The position numbers and the translations under genes were made by a program. DNA of 64,000 bases, taken from positions 3,603,501 to 3,667,500 of the forward strand of contig NZ_CP060139.1 in assembly GCF_014524565.1 (NCBI RefSeq), given 5' to 3'. The stretch is from Croceimicrobium hydrocarbonivorans. Lineage in GTDB: Bacteria > Bacteroidota > Bacteroidia > Flavobacteriales > Schleiferiaceae. Below are positions 13,082-54,120 of the stretch, in pieces (within the stretch, counting starts at the first letter, position 1; each line of letters begins with the position of its first letter). The notes under the pieces are model-generated. The model made no database searches, had not been told where the DNA came from, and saw only the letters and a list, made by a program, of their open reading frames with translations.

Positions 13082-13090
13082 GGGAGACAT

Positions 13091-13322
13091 TAGATTTTAG
13101 ACAATAGAAATTAGAGGGATCTTTCACAAGGAATAGTGTGGGGTGTTTTTAACCGCGAAGAAGCAAAGGGCGCAAAGTTTCGCGAAGCTTCTAAGTCTAA
13201 GTCCCTGCCTGCCGGTAGGCGCGGAGTGCAGCGGGCGGTGAGAGAGTAGTTGGTAGTTGGTTAAGACGATAGATATTAGACTATAGACAATAGTATTTAG
13301 AGGGATCTCTCACAAGGAATAG
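13091..13322. repeat. Direct repeat pair of about 46-52 bp
   Basis: Copy one 13091-13136, copy two 13271-13322. Both end TTAGAGGGATCT(T/C)TCACAAGGAATAG (given here as two blocks: TTAGAGGGATCT and CACAAGGAATAG) after an A/T-rich TAGACAATAG segment. They lie just before repeat units 1 and 2 of the palindromic family, so one composite unit seems to have been duplicated. Confidence 0.7.
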
Positions 13323-13522
13323 CGTTAGTTCTATTTAACCGCAAAGTTGCGAAGAGCGCTAAGTTTCGCAAAGCTTCTCCATACTCCTCCGCGTCCTTTG
13401 TTCCTGCCTGCCGGTAGGTAGGTGCGTCCTCTGTTTCTTGAACGCAGCTGGCGGTGGCAACACACAATTGCCTCTGTGCTCCTCTGCGTCCTCTGTTTCT
13501 CTAGCGAAGCGGGCGGTGAAAC
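13147..13522. repeat. Cluster of three palindromic intergenic repeat units
   Basis: Units at 13147-13241, 13334-13457 and (right half only) 13471-13522. Left ends read TTTAACCGC plus AAG/GCAAAG-type purine repeats; right ends read CTCTGCGTCCTCTG...AGCGAAGCGGGCGGTGAA. The right end is roughly the reverse complement of the left (AACCGC against GCGGT), so a full unit is an imperfect palindrome. A smaller palindrome, CCTGCCTGCCGGTAGG, is nested in units 1 and 2. The cluster fills the gap between convergent yebC and the NTF2-like gene. Short reading frames inside are not believed. Related units occur near 47.9, 49.3-49.8 and 51.6 kb. Confidence 0.8.
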
Positions 13523-13525
13523 AAC

Positions 13526-15380: not shown

Positions 15381-15485
15381 ATAATTGTACAAGGATTATG
15401 AATCATGGTTTTATTTACAATATTGATTAAGAACAGATGGCGCATCAGGATCTCCTAATTCTTGGGTTTGCATTTCAATTTTCAT
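15381..15485 (-). pseudogene. Remnant of a duplicated lipoprotein tail plus DUF4272 gene start
   Basis: An 85-bp block (15387-15471) repeats 16719-16804 with few changes. On the minus strand it encodes 24 codons ending MQTQELGDPDAPSVLNQYCK-stop, matching the C-terminus of the lipoprotein at 16744-16992, then 'MIHNPCTI', matching the DUF4272 start 'MHNPCTL', after which the frame breaks down. This is what is left of a second lipoprotein-DUF4272 gene pair. It also shows which start the DUF4272 gene uses. Confidence 0.75.
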
Positions 15486-15503: not shown

Positions 15504-16736
15504 TTAGGTAGGGCAGCTAACATCATCCCAATCTTCATCCATAAACTGAATTAACCAATTCAGAGTATAGATTCTTTCATACACTACTCCGGAATTCAAT
15601 GCCGCTACTTCTTCTCCATTTAAATGAGCATTAACACAAGCCCAATGATAGCGGTAGTACAGATCATTTTGATCCAGAATTTCCTTTTTAGAACGTAGTG
15701 CATGCTTTTTTTGAATGAATTCCTTTGGATCTTTTTCAAAGATGAAGGGATAGCTTTGCGGCTCAATTTGGTTTAAATCGACGAGGGTATCGGCGGGACC
15801 TAAATCATCAACAATACCTAAGGCCCAACAAAGGGTCCAAATGGCCTCACATTTCCAGGTCATTTGAGTTTTAAGACTCTCTGTAGGATTGTATAAAAAT
15901 GCATTTTCATTGTCCGTTACAAAGGCTTCTAGCTTATATTTCGCGATCTCCTGAAGGGCTTCTTTGTTGTTAATGTTTCCAAAAGCAACGTAATTGAGTA
16001 AAGCTAAAATAACCGTTCGTGCGGCGATTTCTTTCTCATCTCTGACTTGTACTAATTCCTCCGATTCTACATAGGGTAAATGATTAATGTAGGGGATACT
16101 GGCCCTGCTAAGCAATTCGATACTCTCTTTCTTACGCCTAATTTGGTCTGGGTATACATCTTCATTAGGAACTGCTTGTTCTTTATCATCATCTTCCTTG
16201 AGTAATGAATCATCCGGATAGATTTCAGAATGGCCTTCGCTATTTAGATGAAGTTCGAAATCCGGATTCAGTAATTGAGGAATATTACCGCGCCCCGTAA
16301 ATTCATTACTCTGACTAAATATTAGGGCTAGCTTTTCTTTGGGTAGATCATCTAATAGAGCCTTTAATTTGGAGGATTTTGAATCTGAGCATAAAACAGC
16401 TATTTCGTAAAAAACCGAGTCAATTTTATCCAAAAGGCTCTTTTTAGCTTCTTTAGATTTAGCGGAAATGCCCAATATATAACCGTAAAGACCCTTTAGG
16501 TTTTTGGCCATGGCTGAGGTGTCTGCCTTTAGATCCTCCTGAGGATTTCGGTTTCTAAGAGAAAATTGAACCTGCGTTTTTCTTTTTAAGAAGCCACCTT
16601 TCTCGGTAAAGGAAATGGCTTTGCCTTCCGATAGGGCTTTTATTTCTATCTCAGGATCCCGAAAATGTTTAGCAATTAGATTAAGAAGATCCTTTTCTAA
16701 ATCTTGATTAGCATAAAGTGTACAAGGATTATGCAT
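15504..16736 (-). CDS. DUF4272 domain protein
   Basis: 410 aa from the chosen start. The C-terminal half is DUF4272: RRKKESIELLSRASIPYINHLP (about 200-221, given as RRKKESIELL and SIPYINHLP), DEKEIAARTVILALL, WKCEAIWTLCWALG, RSKKEILDQNDLYYRYHWAC, and GVVYERIYTLNWL ending WDDV. The N-terminal half is unassigned and charged. A longer reading with 14 extra residues would overlap the upstream lipoprotein gene; the chosen ATG begins 7 bp after that gene's stop and is the one preserved in the duplicated remnant. DUF4272 proteins are frequent in immunity loci of polymorphic toxins; activity unknown. Confidence 0.83.
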   Translation of the reverse strand: MHNPCTLYANQDLEKDLLNLIAKHFRDPEIEIKALSEGKAISFTEKGGFLKRKTQVQFSLRNRNPQEDLKADTSAMAKNLKGLYGYILGISAKSKEAKKSLLDKIDSVFYEIAVLCSDSKSSKLKALLDDLPKEKLALIFSQSNEFTGRGNIPQLLNPDFELHLNSEGHSEIYPDDSLLKEDDDKEQAVPNEDVYPDQIRRKKESIELLSRASIPYINHLPYVESEELVQVRDEKEIAARTVILALLNYVAFGNINNKEALQEIAKYKLEAFVTDNENAFLYNPTESLKTQMTWKCEAIWTLCWALGIVDDLGPADTLVDLNQIEPQSYPFIFEKDPKEFIQKKHALRSKKEILDQNDLYYRYHWACVNAHLNGEEVAALNSGVVYERIYTLNWLIQFMDEDWDDVSCPT

Positions 16737-16743
16737 GATGGTT

Positions 16744-16992
16744 TTATTTACAATATTGTTTAAGAACAGTTGGCGCATTAGGATCGCCTAATTCTTGGGT
16801 TTGCAGCAAATCGGCGCATCCTTCTTCCAAATAGCCTAAATCATGACGCGCATATAATAACTGGACTATCGCTTCTTCAAATTTTTCTTCTTCTTCGAGG
16901 ATCTCGGCTTCGGCATTGTACTCTGCGGAAGTCTTTAAATCACAGGATTGCAGACAGATTAAAAGCAGCAGAGAATAGATCCTGAAATTCAT
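16744..16992 (-). CDS. Small lipoprotein with one TPR-like hairpin
   Basis: 82 aa from the start chosen at the signal peptide MNFRIYSLLLLICLQSC (lipobox Cys17); a longer frame adds 20 residues without a reason. After the signal, AEYNAEAEILEEEEKFEEAI and LLYARHDLGYLEEGC look like a pair of TPR-type helices. The C-terminus (TQELGDPNAPTVLKQYCK) is preserved in the downstream remnant. Coupled to the DUF4272 gene, whose ATG follows after 7 bp; a partner role is inferred. Confidence 0.65.
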   Translation of the reverse strand: MNFRIYSLLLLICLQSCDLKTSAEYNAEAEILEEEEKFEEAIVQLLYARHDLGYLEEGCADLLQTQELGDPNAPTVLKQYCK

Positions 16993-28263: not shown

Positions 28264-28559
28264 AAATCTCACTTCTCACATCTCACTACTCCTAAGGGAA
28301 ATTCCCCCATCCCCAAAAAGGATATTCCCTCTTTTTATGTAAGGTAAAAGCGTAGCTTATTGGTTTTGGGTATTTTAGAGTGATCTTAAATACTGGCATA
28401 GTACTCATCTAGCCGCAATTGAATGAAGTATGGAGCTGTCTTCTAAGGATTAACTGAAATTTTGAATTATCCTTAAACGAAGTTCTGTTTTTGTCTGAAT
28501 AATGAGGGATATGTGGAGTATTTTAAGGAAAACAACAAGTTGGTGGCAAGCTAAAAAAG
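28264..28559. repeat. Long direct repeat, copy R1 (about 296 bp)
   Basis: Matches 31480-31779 along its length at roughly four-fifths identity by eye, with few gaps. It starts with pyrimidine-rich AAATCTCACTTC, contains GATATTCCCTCTTTTT, AGCTTATTGGTTTTGGGTA, TCTAGCCGCAATTGAATGA and CTGAAATTTTGAATTATCC, and ends AACAAGTTG...GC...AAAAAAG. Similarity stops 7 bp before the PHP-SMC start codon. No reading frame inside is conserved between the copies. The 95 bp between parE and R1 hold nothing recognisable. Confidence 0.88.
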
Positions 28560-28566
28560 AAACATT

Positions 28567-31215
28567 ATGACAGGAGCAAGATTTTTAAGAGCAGATTTAC
28601 ATATTCATTCGTATGGTGAGTTCGGCTCTTATGATGTAACTGACCACACAATGACTCCTGAAGCGATTGTTGACAAGGCAATTGAAAAAAACTTGGGAAT
28701 CATAAGCATTACCGACCACAACGAGATACAGAATGTTAACACAGCACTTAATCATGCCAAAGGAAAGCCTATACTAGTGATTCCAGGTATTGAAGTAAGT
28801 ACAACACAAGGACATCTTCTTCTGTATTTTGAGACATTCAAGAATCTGCGGGATTTCTTTGGAAAACTAACCATAAGTCCTGACAGGAAAACATGTAATC
28901 AAGGTATCGCAGAGTGTTTGGATTTAGCATATCAGCATAATGGATTAGGCGTTCTAGCACATATAGAGCTTGAATCAGGGTTTGAAAAAACAATTGGAAG
29001 GTTCGGGCCACAGATAGAAGAAGTAATGAAACACCCGAACCTTAAAGGGTTAGAAATTTCTTCTAAAACTAGTCTAGATAATTATACTGACAAAGACACA
29101 GATGATAATCGCAAAAGGTTAATTAAATTAAGGAGAGAGCATTTAGAGTTAGAAGTAAACATTGATTTACCAAAACTCATGTCTTCAGATTCCCACACAT
29201 TGAACAAACTTGGTGTTAATGCCGATGGTGAAAAAAAACTTACTAGAATTAAAGTTGATGAACTCAACTTTCACTCTTTTAAAATTGCGCTATTAAGTCA
29301 TGAGTCAAGGATTCGGTTAGAAGATCTTATTCCAGAACAAAGACCCGTTCTACGAAGTATAAAGCTTGATGGTGGCTTACTTGATAATGTAGAGATAGAA
29401 TTAAGTTCCAATCTAACTTGTATAATCGGGAGTCGTGGGGCAGGAAAATCGACCCTTCTCGAGGCAATTAGAGAAGCATCAGGCAATACTTCCAAAGCGA
29501 AGGTTGTCGATTCTGATGTATGGCCACAGGAAATAAAGTTAGTATATGAAGACGAAGCAGGTCAGGTCATAGAATTTAAAAGAGATAAAAACGATAGCCT
29601 ACAGAACATTTCTGACCCGATAAATGGTATCACCAAAGTTGACATTGAAAGTTACGGACAAGGTGAAACTGCAAGTACAATCCAACATAGTGATGAAAAC
29701 CCTAGTGTTTTAGTGTCATTTTTGGACTCCTTCTTAGAGCTCTCGATTCTAAAAGCTGAAGAAAAAGACGTAATTGAAAAGCTCATAGAAAATCAAAGTG
29801 AATCTAAAAAGCTTCGAATTGAATTACTAGGTCTTCCGGAAACCAAAAAAGCACTTTTAAACGAGCAAAAGAAACTAACCAGTTTACAAAAAGAAAAAGC
29901 TGGCGAGCTAGTTAAATTTCAGAACGCTCTTATAAAAGAAAGAGAGATTAGATCATCTCTAATTGAAGATTTAAAAAATCTAATTAAAACCTACCGTGAA
30001 ATCTTGAATGATAGTTCAACTTTTGAATCTTTTGAGAGTCTATCAGAAGATGAAATCGTAGTAGGTAAAGACTTTTTCAATCGTGTAAAAGAGATTGTTT
30101 CAGAGTTTTCGGTAATAGTCAAAGAGAAGTCCAAAGAGCTAAATACTGCCCTTACTGAGAAAGTTGAAGATTTAAAGGCTCAATTAAAATCTTGGTCAGA
30201 AAAGGAGAAGGAAATTCAATCTAAAATAGATTCAAAAAAGAAGGAGTTGGAAGACCAAGGCATTCCTTTTGACTTGGGTAAAATCAACCAAATATCAAAA
30301 GATATAATTCATTATACGGCTCGGGTTAAAAAGTTAGAAGCTAGCAAAAAGCAACTCGAGCAGTATGAAAAAGAAAGGAAAGAGTTAATTCAACAGAGAA
30401 AGTCACTAAAAGACAAAATATATTATAAACGATTTGCATTTGCTCAATCGATAAACAGCAACCTTAAAAATACTCTTGACGGCCTCTTTATTGACGTTAA
30501 ATTTGAACAAGGTAAATATTCAAATGTCTTTGAAAATGATCTAAAGTCAATGATGGATTGGAGAACTTCTCAAGTCCCAAAATCTCCCCAAGTTGTAAAA
30601 CAAATAACTCCTTTGGAATTGGTTGAAGCTGCCTTGAAAAATGACCGAGCAAAATTGGAATCTATCCAAGACTCAAATGGCAACCAGCTCCTAACGAGTT
30701 CAGAGATATCTACGATGATTCAAAGATTAAAGAACGAACATAGGTATGAAGATTTTGAGAGTATAGAATTTGATGATTTACCAAGTATCACTGTAACAAA
30801 GATTTTTAAGGATGATGGAAGTAAAACGATAAGAAACTCCAAAACCATCTCTCAGTTATCTCTCGGTCAACAACAATCTGTTTTACTTGCAATTTTAATG
30901 CTTTCTAAGAGCAAGAGACCCTTAATCATTGACCAGCCAGAAGACAACCTTGATAGCGAGTTTATTTTTAAAACGATCGTTATAAATCTCAGAAAAATTA
31001 AAGAAGCTCGTCAAGTCATTATTGTTACGCATAATCCAAACATTGCAGTATTAGGTGATGCCGAATTAATTATACCACTTAAAAGTACAAGCGTCAAATC
31101 ACATGTAATGGGAGAAGGTTCCATTGATCGTGGAGCGACACGAGAGATTTGTTGTGAAATTCTTGAAGGCGGTAAAAGTGCATTCAAACAAAGACAGGAA
31201 ATCTATGGAATATAA
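28567..31215 (+). CDS. PHP phosphoesterase-SMC-like ATPase fusion (TrlF-like)
   Basis: 882 aa, a candidate anti-phage effector. N-terminal PHP domain (about 5-245) with metal-binding DLHIHS (Asp10, His12, His14), SITDHNE and a late SDSH (SSDSHTL). Then an SMC/RecN-like ATPase: Walker A GSRGAGKST (from 288, Lys296), a long coiled coil about 390-650, signature LSLGQQQS (about 765), Walker B LIIDQPEDNLDSEF (Asp789 region), and HNPNIAVLGDAE switch. This fits the family named 'TrlF-like AAA ATPase'. I infer ATP-gated nuclease or phosphatase action. Flanked by R1 and R2 repeats, AT-rich, no co-transcribed partner. Confidence 0.87.
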   Translation: MTGARFLRADLHIHSYGEFGSYDVTDHTMTPEAIVDKAIEKNLGIISITDHNEIQNVNTALNHAKGKPILVIPGIEVSTTQGHLLLYFETFKNLRDFFGKLTISPDRKTCNQGIAECLDLAYQHNGLGVLAHIELESGFEKTIGRFGPQIEEVMKHPNLKGLEISSKTSLDNYTDKDTDDNRKRLIKLRREHLELEVNIDLPKLMSSDSHTLNKLGVNADGEKKLTRIKVDELNFHSFKIALLSHESRIRLEDLIPEQRPVLRSIKLDGGLLDNVEIELSSNLTCIIGSRGAGKSTLLEAIREASGNTSKAKVVDSDVWPQEIKLVYEDEAGQVIEFKRDKNDSLQNISDPINGITKVDIESYGQGETASTIQHSDENPSVLVSFLDSFLELSILKAEEKDVIEKLIENQSESKKLRIELLGLPETKKALLNEQKKLTSLQKEKAGELVKFQNALIKEREIRSSLIEDLKNLIKTYREILNDSSTFESFESLSEDEIVVGKDFFNRVKEIVSEFSVIVKEKSKELNTALTEKVEDLKAQLKSWSEKEKEIQSKIDSKKKELEDQGIPFDLGKINQISKDIIHYTARVKKLEASKKQLEQYEKERKELIQQRKSLKDKIYYKRFAFAQSINSNLKNTLDGLFIDVKFEQGKYSNVFENDLKSMMDWRTSQVPKSPQVVKQITPLELVEAALKNDRAKLESIQDSNGNQLLTSSEISTMIQRLKNEHRYEDFESIEFDDLPSITVTKIFKDDGSKTIRNSKTISQLSLGQQQSVLLAILMLSKSKRPLIIDQPEDNLDSEFIFKTIVINLRKIKEARQVIIVTHNPNIAVLGDAELIIPLKSTSVKSHVMGEGSIDRGATREICCEILEGGKSAFKQRQEIYGI

Positions 31216-31479: not shown

Positions 31480-31779
31480 AAATCTCACTTCCCACTTCTC
31501 ACTTCCATCCTCCAGGAAAATCCCCCATCCCCCAATAAGGATATTCCCTCTTTTTAAACAAGGTAAAAGCTCAGCTTATTGGTTTTGGGTATTTTGGGCT
31601 GGTACTAAATGCTGGAATAGTACTGATCTAGCCGCAATTGAATGAGGTATGGAGCAGGGTACTAAGGATTAGCTGAAATTTTGAATTATCCTGATATGAA
31701 GCTCTGTTTTTATTTGGAAAATGCGGTATATGTGGAGTATTGGTAAGGATAAAAACAAGTTGTATGCCATGCAAAAAAA
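31480..31779. repeat. Long direct repeat, copy R2 (about 300 bp)
   Basis: Second copy of R1. It ends AACAAGTTGTATGCC...GCAAAAAAAG, after which the sequence departs completely from the other copy (CCGCCCGCACTATTAGCGC). It precedes the TIR-caspase cluster as R1 precedes the PHP-SMC gene. Between the inverted-repeat element and R2 (31360-31479) nothing is recognised. Confidence 0.88.
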
Positions 31780-45524: not shown

Positions 45525-46943
45525 ATGTCTATTCAAAAACCGAATGCTCCAAGGGCTCTATGGCCTTTGATGAGCATTTTTTTATGGCTCTTATTCAGTG
45601 CTTGTGCTGGCAAGGAAGCGGAAATTCAAGCTAGCCTGAATGCCTATACGGAGCAAGGTGCTTGCAATGGCTATCTCTATGTCAGTCAGGCTTCTGAGCT
45701 TTTGTATGATAGTGCCTTTCAAAAGGGGTCACAGAATTTTGCCAGGCTATCCAAAGAGGATCGTTTGGACTTGGCATCTCTTTCTAAACTGTTTACCGAA
45801 GTGGCCATTCTCCGCATGGCGGATGCCCAATTAATTGAATTGGATGCTAAGGTAATGGATTATCGTCCGGGCTTTAAAGCAGTTAAAGCCGGACAAATAA
45901 CCATTCGCCAATTATTGGAAATGCGGTCCGGATTGGCCCGAGAATTAAATCCAGAATTCCAGTTTCAAGCTTTGCCCTTGGATAGCAATGGGCTATTAGG
46001 CCCTTATTTAGATAATCTGGAAAGCCTGCCCATGCAAGCGGAACCGGGAACTAAAGAAGAATACAGCAATTTGGCCTATTGGCTTTTAGGGGCAGTATTG
46101 GAGGCAGTGGGCCAGGCTAATTTGGATAAGGTCTTGGACCAATGGATTTTCGAAGATTTAGAGATGCATTCCAGCGGTTGGCGAGAAGGGAGAAGCAGTC
46201 TCAAGAAGGGTTATGTTCTTAAGCGGGAGCAATGGTCAAAGGATCCAAAGGATTACAGCTGTCGCTATGCTTCGGGAGGCTTTTATTCCTCGGTAACCGA
46301 TTTGGCCAAATTGGCTAAGGCTCTACATGGCGATCATTTCTTAAGCGCTGAAAGCAAGGCATTTTTGCAAAAGCAGGATGCCTTAAGCATTTACGGTTCC
46401 TTACCCTCCAGTTCGCATCTAATAATGCTGGATTGGCGAGCCGAGCTCACTATCATTATGCTTCAGAATTTGGCTTTGGAGGATCTAAATCGAATCCCCC
46501 GATTTGTAACAGAATGCAGGAATGCTTTGGATTTGGCTTCCGCCGAAAGGCCTAAAAGGAAGGTGGTGCTCAATAGCCTGGAAAGACTAGCGGATACGGT
46601 GCCTATGGAGTCGGCAATGAAGGAATGGCTCATAGCACTAAGGAAAGGGAATCCTAAGGATATATTTCAAATCCTGGCTAAGCATTCTGAAGCAGGGAGT
46701 TTTAATCCGGATGATCCTACCTGGCAAGCTCTGGCGGATTTAAATAGAGACTATCCGGATTGGAAAGCTCTGGGCTATCGCTGGATAAATGAGGAGGAGC
46801 CTGGTGGCTTGGAGCTTTGGTTGCAAATGAATGATCATTCGAAAATGGCCCTTTTGTGGATTCCTTCCGAAACAAATCCGAATAGAATTGGGAACCTGTT
46901 TATCCGTCCGGATGATATGGAATGGATGGGCGAAAAATATTGA
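45525..46943 (+). CDS. Serine hydrolase, beta-lactamase/penicillin-binding family, lipoprotein
   Basis: 472 aa. Signal with lipobox (FLWLLFSAC, Cys about 27). Class C beta-lactamase-like core: SxxK as SLSK (Ser85, Lys88), YxN as YSNLAYWLLG, and an HxG-type third motif not clear. Acts in the periplasm, probably as a peptidase or esterase on cell-wall or other substrates. The C-terminal 140 residues are an extra domain (DTVPMESAMKEWLIALRKGN ...). The next gene starts 1 bp after its stop. Confidence 0.82.
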   Translation: MSIQKPNAPRALWPLMSIFLWLLFSACAGKEAEIQASLNAYTEQGACNGYLYVSQASELLYDSAFQKGSQNFARLSKEDRLDLASLSKLFTEVAILRMADAQLIELDAKVMDYRPGFKAVKAGQITIRQLLEMRSGLARELNPEFQFQALPLDSNGLLGPYLDNLESLPMQAEPGTKEEYSNLAYWLLGAVLEAVGQANLDKVLDQWIFEDLEMHSSGWREGRSSLKKGYVLKREQWSKDPKDYSCRYASGGFYSSVTDLAKLAKALHGDHFLSAESKAFLQKQDALSIYGSLPSSSHLIMLDWRAELTIIMLQNLALEDLNRIPRFVTECRNALDLASAERPKRKVVLNSLERLADTVPMESAMKEWLIALRKGNPKDIFQILAKHSEAGSFNPDDPTWQALADLNRDYPDWKALGYRWINEEEPGGLELWLQMNDHSKMALLWIPSETNPNRIGNLFIRPDDMEWMGEKY

Positions 46944-47811: not shown

Positions 47812-47902
47812 TTCTTTTGAGACGATAGTAGATAGACGGTAGACGGTAGATTTGATTGGAGTCAAGGAAGTGTGTTTTGACTTTCAAATTAGGGTGCCTG
47901 GG

Positions 47903-48084
47903 TTTAACCGCAGAGAAGCGAAGAAGCAAAGGGTCGCAAAGGGTCTGTGGATATCTTCTCTGTGAAACTCAGCGTCCTCTGTGTCTCTAGCGCAGCGGGC
48001 GGTGAAGCAAACCGCAAAGAAGCAAAGGTTCGCAAAGGTTTCTCCCTGCCTGCCGGTAGGCGGGTAGCGCAGCGGGCGGTGAAG
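47903..48084. repeat. Two palindromic intergenic repeat units
   Basis: Units at 47903-48007 and 48009-48084 of the family described at 13.1-13.5 kb: TTTAACCGC...GCGAAGAAGCAAAGG on the left, GTCCTCTGTGTCTCTAGCGC then AGCGGGCGGTGAAG on the right; the second contains CCTGCCTGCCGGTAGGCGGG. Together with the small palindromes that follow they fill the 394-bp gap between convergent genes. The first 90 bp hold GACGGTAGACGGTAG-type short tandem repeats (47820-47850). Confidence 0.8.
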
Positions 48085-48093
48085 TAAAATAGG

Positions 48094-48180
48094 ATGGAAT
48101 TGAATTACAAATTCAATCCATTGGCGGTGAAGCAATCCCGATAGGCCCAAAGATGGAATAGAATTACAAATTCAATCCAT
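48094..48180. repeat. Two mini-palindromes (28 bp each)
   Basis: Copies at 48094-48121 and 48153-48180. Arms ATGGAATTGAATT and AATTCAATCCAT with ACA between; the second copy has one arm mismatch (ATGGAATAGAATT). Each is followed by TGGCGGTGAAG, the same right flank as the larger repeats. Other copies: 49697-49724 and 51428-51455. Confidence 0.85.
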
Positions 48181-48205
48181 TGGCGGTGAAGAAACCAAGC
48201 TTTAT

Positions 48206-49234
48206 TTAAATCGAATCATTTTTCATTCGGTAAAAGCTCAGGCGTTTAAAATTGGGATCAAATTGATTTGGTATTAAATGGGTTTCAAAATGCAAGGCCT
48301 TATCATCAAGGGAAATAATTTTCCAGGTTCCATCTTTACTGTATAATCGATCAGGGAAGTAGATTCTTCGGCCATCCGAGCTCAGATCGTAGGAGATCTT
48401 TTCCACTTTTTTCCCCTTAAAGAAAATCACCGAGTCCCTTTCGAATCGCAGTTTCCGAATAGTCAGGCTGTCATTGTCGGCCAAAGGAAAAGGGGGAGAT
48501 GGGAAGCCTTCTATTCTTTCTTCATTAGTATAAGGACTAATCCAATTACCCCATATTCTTGAATGAATTGAAACGGAATCCACAGTTTCCATCCTAAGAG
48601 TGTCAGTAGGTAAAGGAGGATAAATAAATAGGAGCTGCCCATTAGCATTCTTGCTGATTTGTAACAGAGGATCTTGGGGATTTTGAATCCAAAGCATTTG
48701 AACTCCTTTATAATCAATGATATCCCAAGCATTTACAGGCTTCTCACGATGGTAAATTCCATTGTACAATAGGATAGAATCGTTTATGAAGCTTAAGGTA
48801 TCTTGATTATAAGAATTGGAAATTATCCAAGTGCCCAAGAAATCTTTGTGCTTAATACTTGGGTTTAGCTTTTGACTCTGAAGTTTAAAATAGACCATCG
48901 AATCCAGCATTGAGTTTCGATTGAGAACAAGGATCAAAGTATCTTCCCTTTGATCGACAAGGATCGTGTCGGCATCCAGAATCAGTTTATTACCTCTTAA
49001 ATGATAGGCAATATGCCTCTGCAGTATCTTATCCAATTCATCAGAGGCTAAATCACCATAGCTTATTATGCTAAGACTATCTTTTCCAAAGTCCCAGATT
49101 TGTTTTTGCACTTGAGGATAATTAAGCCCATTTTCTTTGGAATAGGCTTGATACCAGATACCTTCTAGCTTGGGCTTGGGTGAGCAAGAACCAAGGAGTA
49201 AAGAAATTCCTATGAGCGTGAGAAAGGTTTTCAC
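48206..49234 (-). CDS. Lipoprotein, unknown
   Basis: 342 aa. Signal MKTFLTLIGISLLLGSCSP with lipobox Cys17. The body is strand-rich with repeating 'L-GTW-I' units (LEGIWYQAYSKENG, FLGTWIISNSYNQD, IWGNWISPYTNEE, SKDGTWKIISLDD), four copies of a pattern like small lipocalin or META-type modules. No family recognised. Between two repeat clusters with no operon partner. Confidence 0.62.
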   Translation of the reverse strand: MKTFLTLIGISLLLGSCSPKPKLEGIWYQAYSKENGLNYPQVQKQIWDFGKDSLSIISYGDLASDELDKILQRHIAYHLRGNKLILDADTILVDQREDTLILVLNRNSMLDSMVYFKLQSQKLNPSIKHKDFLGTWIISNSYNQDTLSFINDSILLYNGIYHREKPVNAWDIIDYKGVQMLWIQNPQDPLLQISKNANGQLLFIYPPLPTDTLRMETVDSVSIHSRIWGNWISPYTNEERIEGFPSPPFPLADNDSLTIRKLRFERDSVIFFKGKKVEKISYDLSSDGRRIYFPDRLYSKDGTWKIISLDDKALHFETHLIPNQFDPNFKRLSFYRMKNDSI

Positions 49235-49331
49235 AGATGAATGGTAATCAGCTTAAACGCAACTGCAATTTATACTTAAGCAAGGAATTGAATTTAGATG
49301 CTAGTTTGTATTTGGAAGTTTGTTGTTGGAG

Positions 49332-49454
49332 TTTAACCGCAAAGAAGCGAAGAAGCAAAGGTTCGCAAAGAGTCTGTGGATCTCTTCTCTATGAAACTCG
49401 GCGTCCTTTGTGTCTCCCTGCCTGCCGGTAGGCGGGTAGCGAAGAGGGCGGTGA
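49332..49454. repeat. Complete palindromic repeat unit
   Basis: Left end TTTAACCGCAAAGAAGCGAA, middle CTGTGGATCTCTTCTCTATG, nested CCTGCCTGCCGGTAGGCGGG, right end AGCGAAGAGGGCGGTGAA. One of the most complete units in the window. Short frames across it are not believed. Confidence 0.8.
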
Positions 49455-49520
49455 ATTTGGGTAGCTAGTAGCTGGTAGTTTGTCGTTGGGTTTTAACCGC
49501 GGAAAAGCGAAGGGCAAAGG

Positions 49521-49640
49521 GAAGAAAAGTAATTGGTAGCTTGTCGTTAGTAGTTCGTGGTTATAAAGACAAGTGATATGGGTTATACTTTCAAGCTTGA
49601 TTTGCGGATGGCTTGGCCACCATGTTTCTCAATAGACCTC
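49521..49640. repeat. Direct repeat copy A flanking the serine hydrolase gene (about 120 bp)
   Basis: Near-identical to 51463-51581: GAAGAAAAGTAATTGGTAG, then GACAAGTGATATGGG-TATAC, TTGATTTGCGGATGGCTTG and CCACCATGTTTCTCAAT. The two copies lie on either side of the gene at 49805-51364. Partial palindromic units (49491 on, 49633-49687, 49749-49800) and a mini-palindrome (49697-49724) complete this 570-bp gap. Confidence 0.88.
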
Positions 49641-49800
49641 TGCGAACCTCCGCGTTCTTTGTGTCTCTAGCGCAGCGGGCGGTGAAGTATAATATGATGG
49701 AATTGAATTACAAATTCAATCCATTGGCGGTGAAGCAACCAGCAAAGTGCCTCTGTGTAACTCTGCGTCCTTTGTGTCTCTAGCGAAGCGGGCGGTGAAA
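49633..49800. repeat. Right-half palindromic units with a mini-palindrome between them
   Basis: Right halves at 49633-49687 and 49749-49800 (CTCTGCG...CTTTGTGTCTCTAGCG, GCGGGCGGTGAA), with the 28-bp mini-palindrome at 49697-49724. The last unit ends 4 bp before the stop codon of the next gene. Confidence 0.75.
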
Positions 49801-49804
49801 CAAC

Positions 49805-51364
49805 TCAAAACCTTTTCCTCACAGCTTTTTGCCCATATAAGCTAAACACCTCCAAGGCATCCTCTTTTCTAAAAGAAATCATCACCCCGGTTTTTGGATG
49901 AATAAGTTGCAATCCATTTGACTGCACCGGACAGAGTCCATAGCGATCGCCATTGGGGAAAACCAGCACAATTTGCTTATGCTTCGTATCAAATTCGAGA
50001 CTAAGATCAATTTGATCGTTCCATTTGTAATCACCCGCCAAAGCTTGGAGGCTATCCTCACTAATTTCTCCACGGCTTACCGCGGTTTGCTTGAAATGTG
50101 GCCAATCATAAACCGCAGAGGCGGATAAGAGCAGTTCATTGCCTAAGTCGGCACCATTATCAGAATTGATCAAATAAACCAAGCCATTTCCGTTAGTCAA
50201 GTTGATCGTCATGCCGCTACGATAACCCACATTACCACCATAATGCGTAAGAGAAATAGCATTTCCAGCGCGCTGGATTATAAAACCATAAACATGTCCT
50301 TCTCTTTGCTGATCTAGCATCGCTTCGATTTCCGCTTGCGTAAAAAGCGCACTCTTGCCATGATAGGCCTTATAGATTTCGATCAGGAAAAGGGCCATGT
50401 CTTGTGAGGTGCTCCATAGTCCGGCTGCAGCTTGTTGAGGATAGTTATTCCATCCGCCATTTATCATTTTGCCATTAGTATCATGGCCTTTAGCCACACG
50501 CGGAGCCAGTGAATCGGGCAGGGGCTGATCAAATAGCGAATGCTTCATTTGCAAAGGCCTTAGAATCCACTGGTCCATGATCTCGGGAAACTCTGCTTGA
50601 AAAATATCTTGCAAAGCCAGCTCCGCCAGGGTATAGCCGCCTCCGGAATAGCTTAGGGTGAAATTTGGTGGTAAAGCAACCTGAATGGCGGGAGTGTTAA
50701 CCCCTGGACTTCCCTTTAGAATATCAAGGTCGGAGGGAAGGGCAGAGTCTTGATCATAGCCTAAATAGCCCCCGCGGCTAATGCCTGAAGTATGGGAAAA
50801 GAGATTGCGAAAGGTAACTGGATTTTCAGCGCTTTGTTCTCCTTCCGGCAAATGAAAGTCCTTTAAATAGGATTCAATATCTCGGTCCATATCAATTGCC
50901 CCAGCTGCTTCCATGCGCAGAGCCGCCATATAAGTTACCGGCTTGGATAATGATGCCGCCTGAAATATTGTTGAGCAATCCAATTCACTCTGCGTAGCAA
51001 AGGCTGGATTTTGATAAAGCTCACTCCAGCTGATTTCACCATGCTCGATGACACTTAGCGATAGAGCCGGAATAGTATACTCAGTCAATTTGCTTTGAAT
51101 AGACTGCAATTCCTCTTCTTCATCCAGAAATTTTACTTGCTCGCGAATGCCATATTCGAGTTCGGTTTTTTTAGCAATGGCTTCTTTTTGACAGAAGCAA
51201 AGGGATTGATCCGAGCTGCCTTTGTGATCAACCGCTTGCTCTTTGTTGAAATTACAAGATGATAGCGAAAAGAAGAGGATGCTCGGGATTAGGAGTTTTT
51301 TCAAGGTTCTGGATTTGAATGGGAAAGCTAGCACATTGCTGCCAGCTAGGAAAATTAACCGCAA
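49805..51364 (-). CDS. Class C beta-lactamase-like serine hydrolase, lipoprotein
   Basis: Up to 519 aa. The lipobox LFFSLSSC lies at about residue 37; the 20 residues before the hydrophobic stretch make the start uncertain, and a non-ATG start just before LKKLLIPSILFF would give a normal signal. Core motifs: SxxK in AASLSKPVTY, YSGGGYTLAEL as the YxN-type motif, and THYGGNVGYRSG as the HxG motif. A lipocalin-like C-terminal domain (from LAGDYKWNDQIDLSLEF) is common in this group. Periplasmic peptidase or esterase, substrate unknown. Bracketed by 120-bp direct repeats. Confidence 0.83.
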   Translation of the reverse strand: MRLIFLAGSNVLAFPFKSRTLKKLLIPSILFFSLSSCNFNKEQAVDHKGSSDQSLCFCQKEAIAKKTELEYGIREQVKFLDEEEELQSIQSKLTEYTIPALSLSVIEHGEISWSELYQNPAFATQSELDCSTIFQAASLSKPVTYMAALRMEAAGAIDMDRDIESYLKDFHLPEGEQSAENPVTFRNLFSHTSGISRGGYLGYDQDSALPSDLDILKGSPGVNTPAIQVALPPNFTLSYSGGGYTLAELALQDIFQAEFPEIMDQWILRPLQMKHSLFDQPLPDSLAPRVAKGHDTNGKMINGGWNNYPQQAAAGLWSTSQDMALFLIEIYKAYHGKSALFTQAEIEAMLDQQREGHVYGFIIQRAGNAISLTHYGGNVGYRSGMTINLTNGNGLVYLINSDNGADLGNELLLSASAVYDWPHFKQTAVSRGEISEDSLQALAGDYKWNDQIDLSLEFDTKHKQIVLVFPNGDRYGLCPVQSNGLQLIHPKTGVMISFRKEDALEVFSLYGQKAVRKRF

Positions 51365-51427
51365 AGAAGCACTTGCCTGCCGGTAGACGAGTGAAACGTA
51401 ACGGGGATCGAATTACAAGAAAAAAAA

Positions 51428-51455
51428 ATGGAATCGAATTACAAATTCGATCCAT
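51428..51455. repeat. Mini-palindrome with compensatory base change
   Basis: Arms ATGGAATCGAATT and AATTCGATCCAT. Compared with the other copies a T-A pair has become C-G in both arms, so pairing is kept. A damaged half copy (GGATCGAATTACAA) lies just before, at 51405-51418. Confidence 0.85.
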
Positions 51456-51462
51456 AGGCGGT

Positions 51463-51581
51463 GAAGAAAAGTAATTGGTAGTTTGTCCTTAGTATTTCGT
51501 GGTTTTAAAGACAAGTGATATGGGGTATACTTTCAATCTTGATTTGCGGATGGCTTGCCACCATGTTTCTCAATTGACCTC
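51463..51581. repeat. Direct repeat copy B flanking the serine hydrolase gene
   Basis: Partner of 49521-49640, with about a dozen small differences by eye. It follows a mini-palindrome directly (GGCGGTGAAGAAAAG), as copy A follows a palindromic unit. Confidence 0.88.
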
Positions 51582-51665
51582 CCTGCCTGCCGGTAGGCAG
51601 GTGTGACCCTCTGTGCACCTCCGCGTTCTCTGCTTCTCAAGCGACGAAGGAGCGGGCGGTGAAAC
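51577..51665. repeat. Palindromic repeat unit, right half
   Basis: Contains CCTGCCTGCCGGTAGGCAGG, then CTCCGCGTTCTCTGCTTCTC and AGCGGGCGGTGAAAC. Same family as 13.1-13.5 kb. Confidence 0.75.
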
Positions 51666-51673
51666 AAACAAAC

Positions 51674-51712
51674 AAAAAAACTCCCCACCCAATCCTCAGA
51701 CCAGGCAGGGAG
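51674..51712 (-). terminator. Intrinsic terminator of the SDR-barrel operon
   Basis: On the minus strand CTCCCTGCC (51704-51712) pairs with GGTGGGGAG (51681-51689), followed by seven T. It is 8 bp past the stop of the last operon gene. Confidence 0.75.
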
Positions 51713-51719
51713 CCTAGCT

Positions 51720-52298
51720 TTAAAAGAATCCAAGCTTTAGATTGATACCGTATTCCCAGGAAGAGAGGTCCTCTTGTTTAAAGTCCCGATCATTCTCGGC
51801 CCAAATCAATTGATAGCCACCGTAGAAGCCAATCTGAGCATGGGGACTGATATTGAAATCCCAGTTCAAGCGGGGACTAAAGACATAAATGGTGCTTTTG
51901 GCCACCTTGTTATCCAAGGCATCTTTAAGGCTCACTCCACCCACCGCGAAGGGTAAACGCAATCCGGGGATATAGAGATGCTCCTTGTTTTGAACGCTCT
52001 CAATAAAGAGACCACCATAGCCCATGTTTAAGTTCAGTTCTTGGTCGAGGCCATAGGCTAAACCGCTTACCGACATGGAGTTTACGGCGCCCATCCCAAA
52101 TCCACCTAAGGCGAAATAGTCTTTATACTGCACCGCTCCCTGGCCACCGACCCAAAGCGCAAGCTGTTGCATGGGGCTGCTATTGGCTACTTGGACGCCG
52201 CCAAAGGAGGTCCAATTGCGACTTTCACTGTTTTGCTGGGCTTTTAAAGCACTTTGACTGATGAAGAGCAGTCCGAAAAGAATGAGGGTTTTTCTCAT
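51720..52298 (-). CDS. Outer-membrane beta-barrel-like protein
   Basis: 192 aa. Signal MRKTLILFGLLFISQSALKAQ, then amphipathic strands with aromatic girdles (YFALGGFGMGAVNSMSVSGL, AQIGFYGGYQLIWAEND) and a C-terminal Phe (LKLGFF). Last gene of a five-gene operon, 11 bp after the S41 peptidase, ended by a strong terminator. Role unknown; perhaps the outer-membrane partner of the operon's other products. Confidence 0.72.
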   Translation of the reverse strand: MRKTLILFGLLFISQSALKAQQNSESRNWTSFGGVQVANSSPMQQLALWVGGQGAVQYKDYFALGGFGMGAVNSMSVSGLAYGLDQELNLNMGYGGLFIESVQNKEHLYIPGLRLPFAVGGVSLKDALDNKVAKSTIYVFSPRLNWDFNISPHAQIGFYGGYQLIWAENDRDFKQEDLSSWEYGINLKLGFF

Positions 52299-52309
52299 GA
52301 TTTGTGATT

Positions 52310-53338
52310 TTAGTTGATGTTATAGTTTTCAGTTAAAAATTGAATGGCCCCCTCCAATACAAGGTCTTTGCCAGACTGGATATTTGAAGGATTATTTTTG
52401 ATATTTATTTCCGGCTTGATGCCCAGCTTCTCAAAGCTGCTGCCATCGGGTTGGAGGATTTTTTGAATGCTGTACTCATAGCGCCAGCCATTGGCCAGAA
52501 AGCGGGCCGGACTCACCATCGATAAGGCACCGGCCGTACTATTTCCAATATGATGGACCTGATCGTAGGAACGCAGGTACAGACTGAGAATCTCCGCCTC
52601 ACTTACCGTTCCTCTATCCGTTAGGAATACAATAGGTTTGGCAAAATGAGGAGAGGAGGGAGCCGGACTCTTATAATCTTCTGCAGTACTAAATTGATGG
52701 GCTCCGGGACCAGATTTTACACGGCTGCGGAATACCAGGTCCTGATGCCGACTGAAATGCGCTGCGAAGATGGCTGCTAATCCATCATACCCCCCAATAC
52801 ATTGTCTGAGGTCAATAACCAAGGCTGATTTCGCATCTAAATCCAAAGCCTCCAAGGCATTGATTAAATACCGTTCATCCTCTTCCAATAAGGCCGCCAC
52901 GTAGAGATAGGCGATTTTGGGGCTCAGTTCTCCATAGAGCAACATATCCCCCGAAAGGCCCGCATTATCTAAATAATCAGCAGCAATTAGCTCAAGGCTG
53001 AAGGCTTGCTGACTGGCAATAAAGCCCTCGTCACCCGAGATGAATATTTCCTCCTCCGCATCGCGGTAAAGCTTTATATGTTCATCGTTCAAAGCATCTG
53101 CATAGGAACAGAGGGCTTGCCACAATTCGGCATCGGAGCTATTTGCTTTTAAGTTCTTGCGCAGGCTATAGTAGAGGGAGTCGGCCTGATGCTCATTTGC
53201 AAAGCCAGCATAATGGCTTTTCAAATCTTGATGGAAGGAATCATAGATGCTGAGGGCATCGCTATCGGCTTCCGCTAAATCGGATTGGCAGGCCAAGGCC
53301 AAAAGGAGGAGGCTAAACAGGCTTAGTATTCGAAACAT
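52310..53338 (-). CDS. S41-family peptidase-like lipoprotein
   Basis: 342 aa. Lipobox LLLALAC (Cys17). C-terminal protease core of the tail-specific/S41 type: SALVIDLRQCIGGYDGLAAI, KPIVFLTDRGTVSEAEILSL with the catalytic Ser246, and NSTAGALSM. No PDZ domain is seen between the N-terminal helices and the core. Cleaves periplasmic or surface proteins. Starts on the stop of the upstream barrel gene (1-bp overlap). Confidence 0.85.
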   Translation of the reverse strand: MFRILSLFSLLLLALACQSDLAEADSDALSIYDSFHQDLKSHYAGFANEHQADSLYYSLRKNLKANSSDAELWQALCSYADALNDEHIKLYRDAEEEIFISGDEGFIASQQAFSLELIAADYLDNAGLSGDMLLYGELSPKIAYLYVAALLEEDERYLINALEALDLDAKSALVIDLRQCIGGYDGLAAIFAAHFSRHQDLVFRSRVKSGPGAHQFSTAEDYKSPAPSSPHFAKPIVFLTDRGTVSEAEILSLYLRSYDQVHHIGNSTAGALSMVSPARFLANGWRYEYSIQKILQPDGSSFEKLGIKPEINIKNNPSNIQSGKDLVLEGAIQFLTENYNIN

Positions 53339-54120
53339 TAGAAGGTGTAGTTTAGGGCGATTAATAAGGACTGACTAAAAAGGGCGAATTCGGGATTCTT
53401 AGTAAGGTGAATGGCTTGCCATTGATGCTTTAAGCCCAATTCCAATCTGCGGTGCAGGGCATAGTAAATGGCCGATTCGCCTTCCAATTTTTGATTATCC
53501 AGCCCCGAAGCCCATTTGGAATTCGAAAAGAGCAATTGTTTTAGGCTTTCAGCATCCTCAGAACCGAAGGCATTAAAAGGAGGTCTTTTATAAGAGGAGA
53601 TCAGGCTAAAAGCCAAATCGGCTTCGAGGCGCCATGCCGCTTTGCGATATACAAAGCTTGAGAAGAGCGCTAAATTCTGCTCCTGGAAGAAGCTTAAGGC
53701 TGAGCTTAATTCATAGTCATCTTCCCATTGCAATACTTGTACATCCAAAGCATAGCGCGGACCCAAGCTAAGGTTCCAGTTCTCATCACTAAGCACAGAC
53801 CATTGATAGGAGAGCTTAGCTTGAAGCTGTAACCAGGGACTTTCCAAAAATTCAAATTCGCCGGGACTTAGACCTCCGGTATTATAAGCTATATCCAAGC
53901 GAAAGCGATTGCCTTTGCGGGATTCCCAAAATCCGGAGATCGCTGTATTCAAGCTGTTCCCTTCATAGAGCAAGGGGGAGAAATCCGCATCCTTGATCTT
54001 CATGGAACTTAATCCGGCGCTTAGTTGGATGCGTCGATAGGATTCGGTTTCCTGAGCCAGGCTAGGGCTACTATTTAATACCAATAGCAAGCCTAGTACT
54101 TTGTAAATTCTATTTTTCAT
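53338..54120 (-). CDS. Outer-membrane beta-barrel-like protein
   Basis: 260 aa. Signal MKNRIYKVLGLLLVLNSSPS-LA, about ten amphipathic strands and a terminal Phe (LLIALNYTF). In size and strand layout it resembles the barrel at 62477-63250, whose promoter carries the same motif, so they may be distant paralogues; sequence similarity is low. Overlaps both neighbours by 1 bp. Confidence 0.7.
   Translation of the reverse strand: MKNRIYKVLGLLLVLNSSPSLAQETESYRRIQLSAGLSSMKIKDADFSPLLYEGNSLNTAISGFWESRKGNRFRLDIAYNTGGLSPGEFEFLESPWLQLQAKLSYQWSVLSDENWNLSLGPRYALDVQVLQWEDDYELSSALSFFQEQNLALFSSFVYRKAAWRLEADLAFSLISSYKRPPFNAFGSEDAESLKQLLFSNSKWASGLDNQKLEGESAIYYALHRRLELGLKHQWQAIHLTKNPEFALFSQSLLIALNYTF

Follow-up and report, generated by a model that had tools for sequence, protein, structure and literature searches.

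Repetitive extragenic palindromic (REP) sequences and the REP-associated tyrosine transposases (RAYTs) are the closest described relatives of the element considered here, a 28-bp hairpin present in four copies in a 64,000-nucleotide stretch of DNA (the window; positions 3603501-3667500 of the single-contig genome of Croceimicrobium hydrocarbonivorans, 4,035,598 bases, hereafter G000). PMC6006769 describes TnpAREP subclass 2.6 as a group mostly from Bacteroidetes that includes RAYT group 5, carries the motifs NH[LIV]H, WQ and YIH[QN]NP, and has the entry 179 in the length column. Its genes are flanked by atypical hairpins without a GT[AG]G foot, copies of which occur elsewhere in the genome (PMC6006769). 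Convergent close pairs of REPs are known as REP doublets forming hairpins (REPINs) or bacterial interspersed mosaic elements (BIMEs), both named in PMC6006769 (see also PMC3116915). For the gammaproteobacterial REP/RAYT systems, a 2010 paper speaks of "selection for complementary mutations" in the REP arms and of strains without a cognate rayt (PMC2817692).

The window hairpins are very probably degenerate members of a REP/REPIN family that was spread by a RAYT in an ancestor shared with a sister species (genome G001), the gene having later been lost in G000. Compared with subclass 2.6 as published, the phylum agrees, the RAYT of G001 has 174 amino acids against 179 and the motifs NHLH and WQ, and its gene is flanked by hairpins without GT[AG]G that have copies elsewhere in the genome (PMC6006769). 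In contrast, the Y motif of the G001 protein, YLHLNP, differs at two positions from the published one (PMC6006769), and the RAYT gene is missing from G000. Membership of the G001 protein in subclass 2.6 is likely but not settled, the comparison having covered motifs, length and phylum. The family shares with REPINs and BIMEs its convergent close pairs (in G000, 11 of 16 pairs of neighbours no more than 200 bp apart), whereas the four window copies stand in direct tandem or singly. With the gammaproteobacterial systems it shares complementary arm mutations and the occurrence in a genome without the cognate gene (PMC2817692). The REP hairpins are a known kind of bacterial repeat, in which the trace of the transposase's probable loss is unusually clear. 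A search of the open-licence literature found no REP family of Flavobacteriales named in titles or abstract openings; the present one comes with its cognate RAYT and in a close species pair with and without the gene.

The REP family and the pairing of its arms

The family consensus is near CTGGATCGAATT-GCA-AATTCGATCCAGT, a longer palindrome that often stands in convergent pairs. The 28-mer pattern of the window, with at most three mismatches, was found at five places in the whole 4.04-Mb genome, the fifth at position 1092571, and the reversed control pattern at none. A relaxed pattern recovered 22 places in G000. A core pattern fixed the core and a CCAG tail and allowed any letter in the outer 5' arm and at three positions of the 3' arm. 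It recovered 30 places in G000 and 39 in G001, against 0-2 per genome in the 37 other relatives. Reversed as a control, it had no match in G000 or G001 and a single one in a further genome (G030). The pattern search yielded 69 copies, 61 of which were kept (two with N and six duplicates were dropped) and 57 aligned, leaving out three partial tandem copies of locus L124 and one of L139. The first covariation table uses all 69 copies, the covariation score and covariance model R1 the 57. Model R1 made 55 matches in G000, which merge to 44 places when both strands of a place are counted once, and 59 in G001 (not merged); G006 had one weak match, and the four remaining genomes of the genus had none. 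The model search scored 150 candidates per genome, and the 44 places at E ≤ 0.1 may be a lower bound.

G000 thus contains a short palindrome in tens of copies, as expected of a REP family. The 44 places are divided equally between the strands (22 each), and 30 of them have a neighbour within 200 bp. Besides the convergent pairs, the 16 neighbour pairs include four tandem and one divergent, and about 0.1 pairs would be expected at random. The convergent arrangement typical of BIMEs and REPINs is found genome-wide but not in the four window copies. Within the 57-copy alignment, the dyad core GAATT-NNN-AATTC is nearly constant, the inner five pairs being in their commonest state in 55-57 copies. 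The loop reads GCA in 36 copies and ACA in 16, and the tail after the stem is AGT in 32 and AG in 45. At one place in G001 (C17, L124:1057-1171), a 19-bp tandem array is built from the 3' half of the REP, with six starts at 19-bp steps.

A preliminary description of the window had read a change in both arms of one copy as a sign of selection on the hairpin. Over the 69 copies, arm changes are strongly correlated, so that uncorrelated changes, named in that description as the refuting case, were not what the genome showed; the window alone does not support selection, as it offers about one event, with a counter-example in the copy at 48153. At the three free pairs, whose letters the pattern constrained on neither side, Watson-Crick pairing is seen in 59, 60 and 56 of the 69 copies, whereas shuffling gives 30.9, 53.5 and 23.8 on average (P = 0.00005, 0.00055 and 0.00005; 20,000 shuffles). 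Pair -5/+5, which is partly fixed by the pattern, is matched in 51 copies against 34.5 after shuffling. When the window copies and their syntenic locus are removed (63 copies), the three free pairs are still matched in 54, 54 and 50. Since the copies are related, there are fewer independent events than the P values suggest, and the ten different fully paired triplets among the 69 copies are the sturdier evidence. The 57-copy alignment has 87.4% of its cells paired against 80.4% in shuffles, and its covariation score of 0.264 compares with 0.129 in shuffles, 0 of 500 of which reached it; shifting the partner by 1-3 columns leaves at most 0.081.

The species pair (86-97% DNA identity over 17 syntenic stretches) allows a test of whether resident REPs keep their hairpins after transposase loss. 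Fourteen syntenic stretches were aligned, giving 17 ungapped REP comparisons, nine with the same arms and eight with different ones; the sample is small and leaves aside twelve gapped comparisons. Apart from two doubtful exceptions, each difference touches one arm only. At L110/L130, T-A in one genome stands against C-G in the other, and the second of two G001 REPs there fits the G000 copy better. At L118/L133, the pair differs on both sides and is unpaired in both genomes, and the flanks align poorly. Single-sided changes in resident copies are in line with, though no proof of, a check on pairing at the time of copying and not later. Elsewhere (L117:5080-5230 in G000, L127:4590-4740 in G001), the arms are perfect and the loop differs between the species, TGT against ACA, as an inversion of the hairpin within its site would produce.

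The transposase of the sister species and its locus

The RAYT of G001 scores 106.7 bits against NF047646 (REP-associated tyrosine transposase; cut-off 80) and 28.9 bits against Y1_Tnp (cut-off 23). Compared with solved structures, it gave one weak match, to TnpArep (4er8, E 0.0065). Of 296 genomes of the order, 55 yielded relatives of the protein (E ≤ 1e-6). Its gene lies amid hairpins of the family, three upstream and one downstream, so that the arrangement of a REPtron is present in the sister species but not in G000. The suggestion that the window hairpins serve as a substrate of a REP-associated transposase agrees with this locus, yet no such gene was found in the genome that carries them: searches of G000 with PF01797 (Y1_Tnp), with the G001 protein and with NF047646 were empty, and control genomes responded in both family searches. 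The presence of a RAYT in G000 was rejected on these grounds, and a RAYT acting there now is not supported. Hairpins may accompany other RAYTs as well. In a scan of 59 loci, made without statistics or controls, 13 had no hairpin of the scanned kind; several loci (e.g., L199, L201 and L203), from 11 of the 59 picked by hand, have inverted pairs with different arms and TGC/TGT-type loops.

The site from which the gene is missing can be recognised. The protein encoded to one side of the G001 RAYT is 99% identical to one in G000, where the two flanks lie next to each other (DNA identity 93.7% and 91.1%, each over about 2 kb) and a REP pair is all that separates them; model R1 matched this pair as well. 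The first REP of this pair equals the downstream REP of G001 over 25 columns before the core and over the 13-column core; past the core, it equals the upstream REP for 12 columns and is then like neither. It fits a chimera of the two REPs that flank the G001 gene, and recombination between REPs therefore probably deleted the RAYT. As judged from the alignment, the two REPs would have had the same orientation and the exchange would have fallen inside the core. The putative deletion product has one mismatched pair. The reverse route, by which the RAYT was gained in G001 rather than lost in G000, is possible.

Weighing the explanations

According to the preferred explanation, an IS200-like Y1 (HuH) transposase of the RAYT kind would have moved REPs as single-stranded hairpins through the ancestral chromosome. 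Arm pairing would be required for recognition at copying, and compensated variants could thereby found sub-families. The gene would later have been lost from G000, most likely by recombination between two flanking REPs, leaving the REPs as orphans, to decay or to be carried along. The window copies, which lack the usual AGT tail, would have spread by local tandem and segmental duplication together with the surrounding repeat complex. A bolder proposal is tentative and rather doubtful, namely that two of the gene's own REPs recombined within the 13-bp core they share and so removed it, and that resident copies no longer keep their arms paired, which would make the two species a natural before/after pair. 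If it were true, pairing would be tested only at copying, and the REPs would be relics of amplification instead of hairpins that function for the host.

Several observations weigh against the preferred explanation. The GT[AG]G tetranucleotide was not found at the 5' foot, where CCAGT/CTAGT is conserved instead (ACTGG/ACTAG on the other strand). Pairs -4/+4 (42 of 69 against 39.5 shuffled, with an A-C mismatch in 22) and -6/+6 (40 of 69 against 40.6) do not covary, and in the 57 copies the number of pairs changed on both sides is unexceptional (6 against 5.1, reached in 137 of 500 shuffles). For other species, PMC2817692 reports a tenfold difference in REP numbers between genomes with and without the gene, whereas the numbers of model matches are alike here without the gene (55, G000) and with it (59, G001), as might be expected if the loss was recent. 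Other Y1 genes are present in several genomes of the genus and family that lack this REP family; in G006, a member of the genus, the Y1-type matches stay under the NF047646 cut-off and hairpins of the family are almost absent. As to the deletion, the right half of the chimera consists of the 12 columns past the core, only five of which tell the donors apart. Lastly, the binding and cutting of REPs by the G001 protein are predictions from sequence.

Covariation could also have its origin in replication. Template switching is established for imperfect palindromes, and within one strand of a quasi-palindrome it may rewrite one arm from the other with no selection on the hairpin. One-step intermediates are rare, which is what simultaneous change of both arms would predict: the 207 cells of the three free pairs in 69 copies include 175 Watson-Crick, 3 G-T and 8 C-A pairs. 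Nevertheless, such correction should mend pairs -4/+4 and -6/+6, which are often unpaired and include the recurring A-C mismatch, and the single-sided differences in the 17 forced syntenic comparisons, apart from their two doubtful exceptions, also speak against it. Template switching is an unlikely source of the covariation. It can act on a REP family too and is compatible with spread by a RAYT, in which case the argument for selection would fall away; covariation alone does not separate hairpin selection from template-switch correction.

It is improbable that the hairpins work as RNA, as transcription terminators or mRNA ends, and that pairing is kept for that purpose. On account of the T run that follows it, the copy at 51428 was called a terminator-like site of the minus strand. 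However, it is the only one of the four window copies so called, and terminator-like sites number 8 against 4.8 in shuffles, so that a terminator function was rejected as weak. A longer stem with a T run (51715-51678) lies closer to the end of gene 51720-52298. A known RNA family was likewise rejected, as no Rfam family matches the window at gathering scores. Convergent pairs and the association with a RAYT would be left unexplained. The dyad with its nearly constant core would suit the double-stranded binding site of a dimeric regulator, but this reading deserves very little credence: the outer arm letters vary provided that they are paired, as the ten triplets illustrate, the loop is asymmetric and nearly fixed, and the copies stand in convergent pairs. 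Moreover, the family occurs in two of seven genomes of the genus (plus one weak match) and surrounds a RAYT gene in G001.

The window copies and their surroundings

The four 28-bp palindromes of the preliminary description were all found again (Table 1). Their arms have 13 and 12 nucleotides, with one bulged A on the 5' side, and the loop is ACA. The full palindrome exceeds chance, unlike the short arm alone, which, with two mismatches, has 9 matches in the window against 5.79 expected and is not beyond chance. All four copies lie outside open reading frames (ORFs) of at least 90 amino acids.

Table 1. REP-like hairpins and the duplicated stretches around them (window coordinates)
Feature	Position	Strand	Basis	Predicted DNA fold (kcal/mol)
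71-bp duplicated stretch holding the first hairpin	48065..48135	+	repeat family D3	
REP-like hairpin, TTG/CAA form, tail CCATTGG	48094..48121	+	model R1, 40.3 bits; within 71-bp repeat 48065-48135	-7.4
REP-like hairpin, uncompensated arm change, TAG against CAA	48153..48180	+	model R1, 36 bits	-4.7
71-bp duplicated stretch holding the third hairpin	49668..49738	+	repeat family D3, 97% identity to 48065-48135	
REP-like hairpin, TTG/CAA form, sequence identical to the copy at 48094	49697..49724	+	within 71-bp repeat 49668-49738	-7.4
Half REP (5' arm and loop only), found in G001 too	51405..51418	+	reading of letters and alignment	
REP-like hairpin, TCG/CGA form, identical in G001	51428..51455	+	model R1, 37.7 bits	-8.4

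The copies at 48094 and 48153 form a direct tandem with a spacing of 59 bp, and those at 48094 and 49697 are not independent, since they lie in the two 71-bp repeats. None of the four is in a convergent arrangement, each being tandem or single, and the duplicated stretches that hold two of them are part of a longer repeat complex. In the 57-copy alignment, the tail after the stem is CCAT in the window copies and their G001 counterparts. The window copies appear to be a degenerate tandem branch of the REP family, carried by local duplication.

The copy at 51428 had been singled out as the one in which both arms changed together, from TTG/CAA to TCG/CGA. This view has to be corrected: the supposed compensatory copy is a conserved one. 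A single alignment of G001 matches window positions 49645-53625 at 90.4% identity, and the hairpin is the same there letter for letter; the half REP before it is present too. Across the family, the pair in question is C-G in 35 of the 69 copies and T-A in 24, making TCG/CGA the commonest form. Because of this identity and the prevalence of C-G, the view of the 51428 copy as the changed one was rejected as reversed or unproven; the change would have run in the other direction or would be older than both species. A TTG/CAA copy follows the 51428 equivalent by 59 bp in G001, so that both forms stand side by side; the hairpin at 49697 was not seen at the aligned place of that genome. A compensatory change in the window thus amounts to one double change at most, and the copy at 48153, the weakest of the four folds, was altered on the 5' arm alone with the opposite CAA intact.

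The longer intergenic repeat complex in which the hairpins are embedded occupies 13085-13525 and 47876-51670 of the window and reads CCGCAAAGAAGCAAAGG ... CTCTGCGTCCTTTGTGTCTCTAGCGCAGCGGGCGGTGAA with CCTGCCTGCCGGTAGGC palindromes. Palindromes of the CCTGCCTGCCGGTAGGC type occur at six places in the window (repeat families D2 and D4-D7). The segment 47920-49645, in which gene 48206-49234 stands between repeat complexes, has no counterpart in the syntenic contig stretch of G001, the only part of that genome searched for it. Beside the repeats, 45525-46943 and 49805-51364 encode two proteins with a Pfam Beta-lactamase domain (PF00144); a scan covering the second placed it far under the NCBIfam cut-offs of named beta-lactamases. 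Further repeats are found elsewhere in the window. Two copies of a 228-nt repeat, 84% alike (28295-28522 and 31514-31741), flank ORF 28567-31215, and a 90-nt direct repeat, 92% alike (15383-15472 and 16716-16805), lies at the two ends of ORF 15504-16778.

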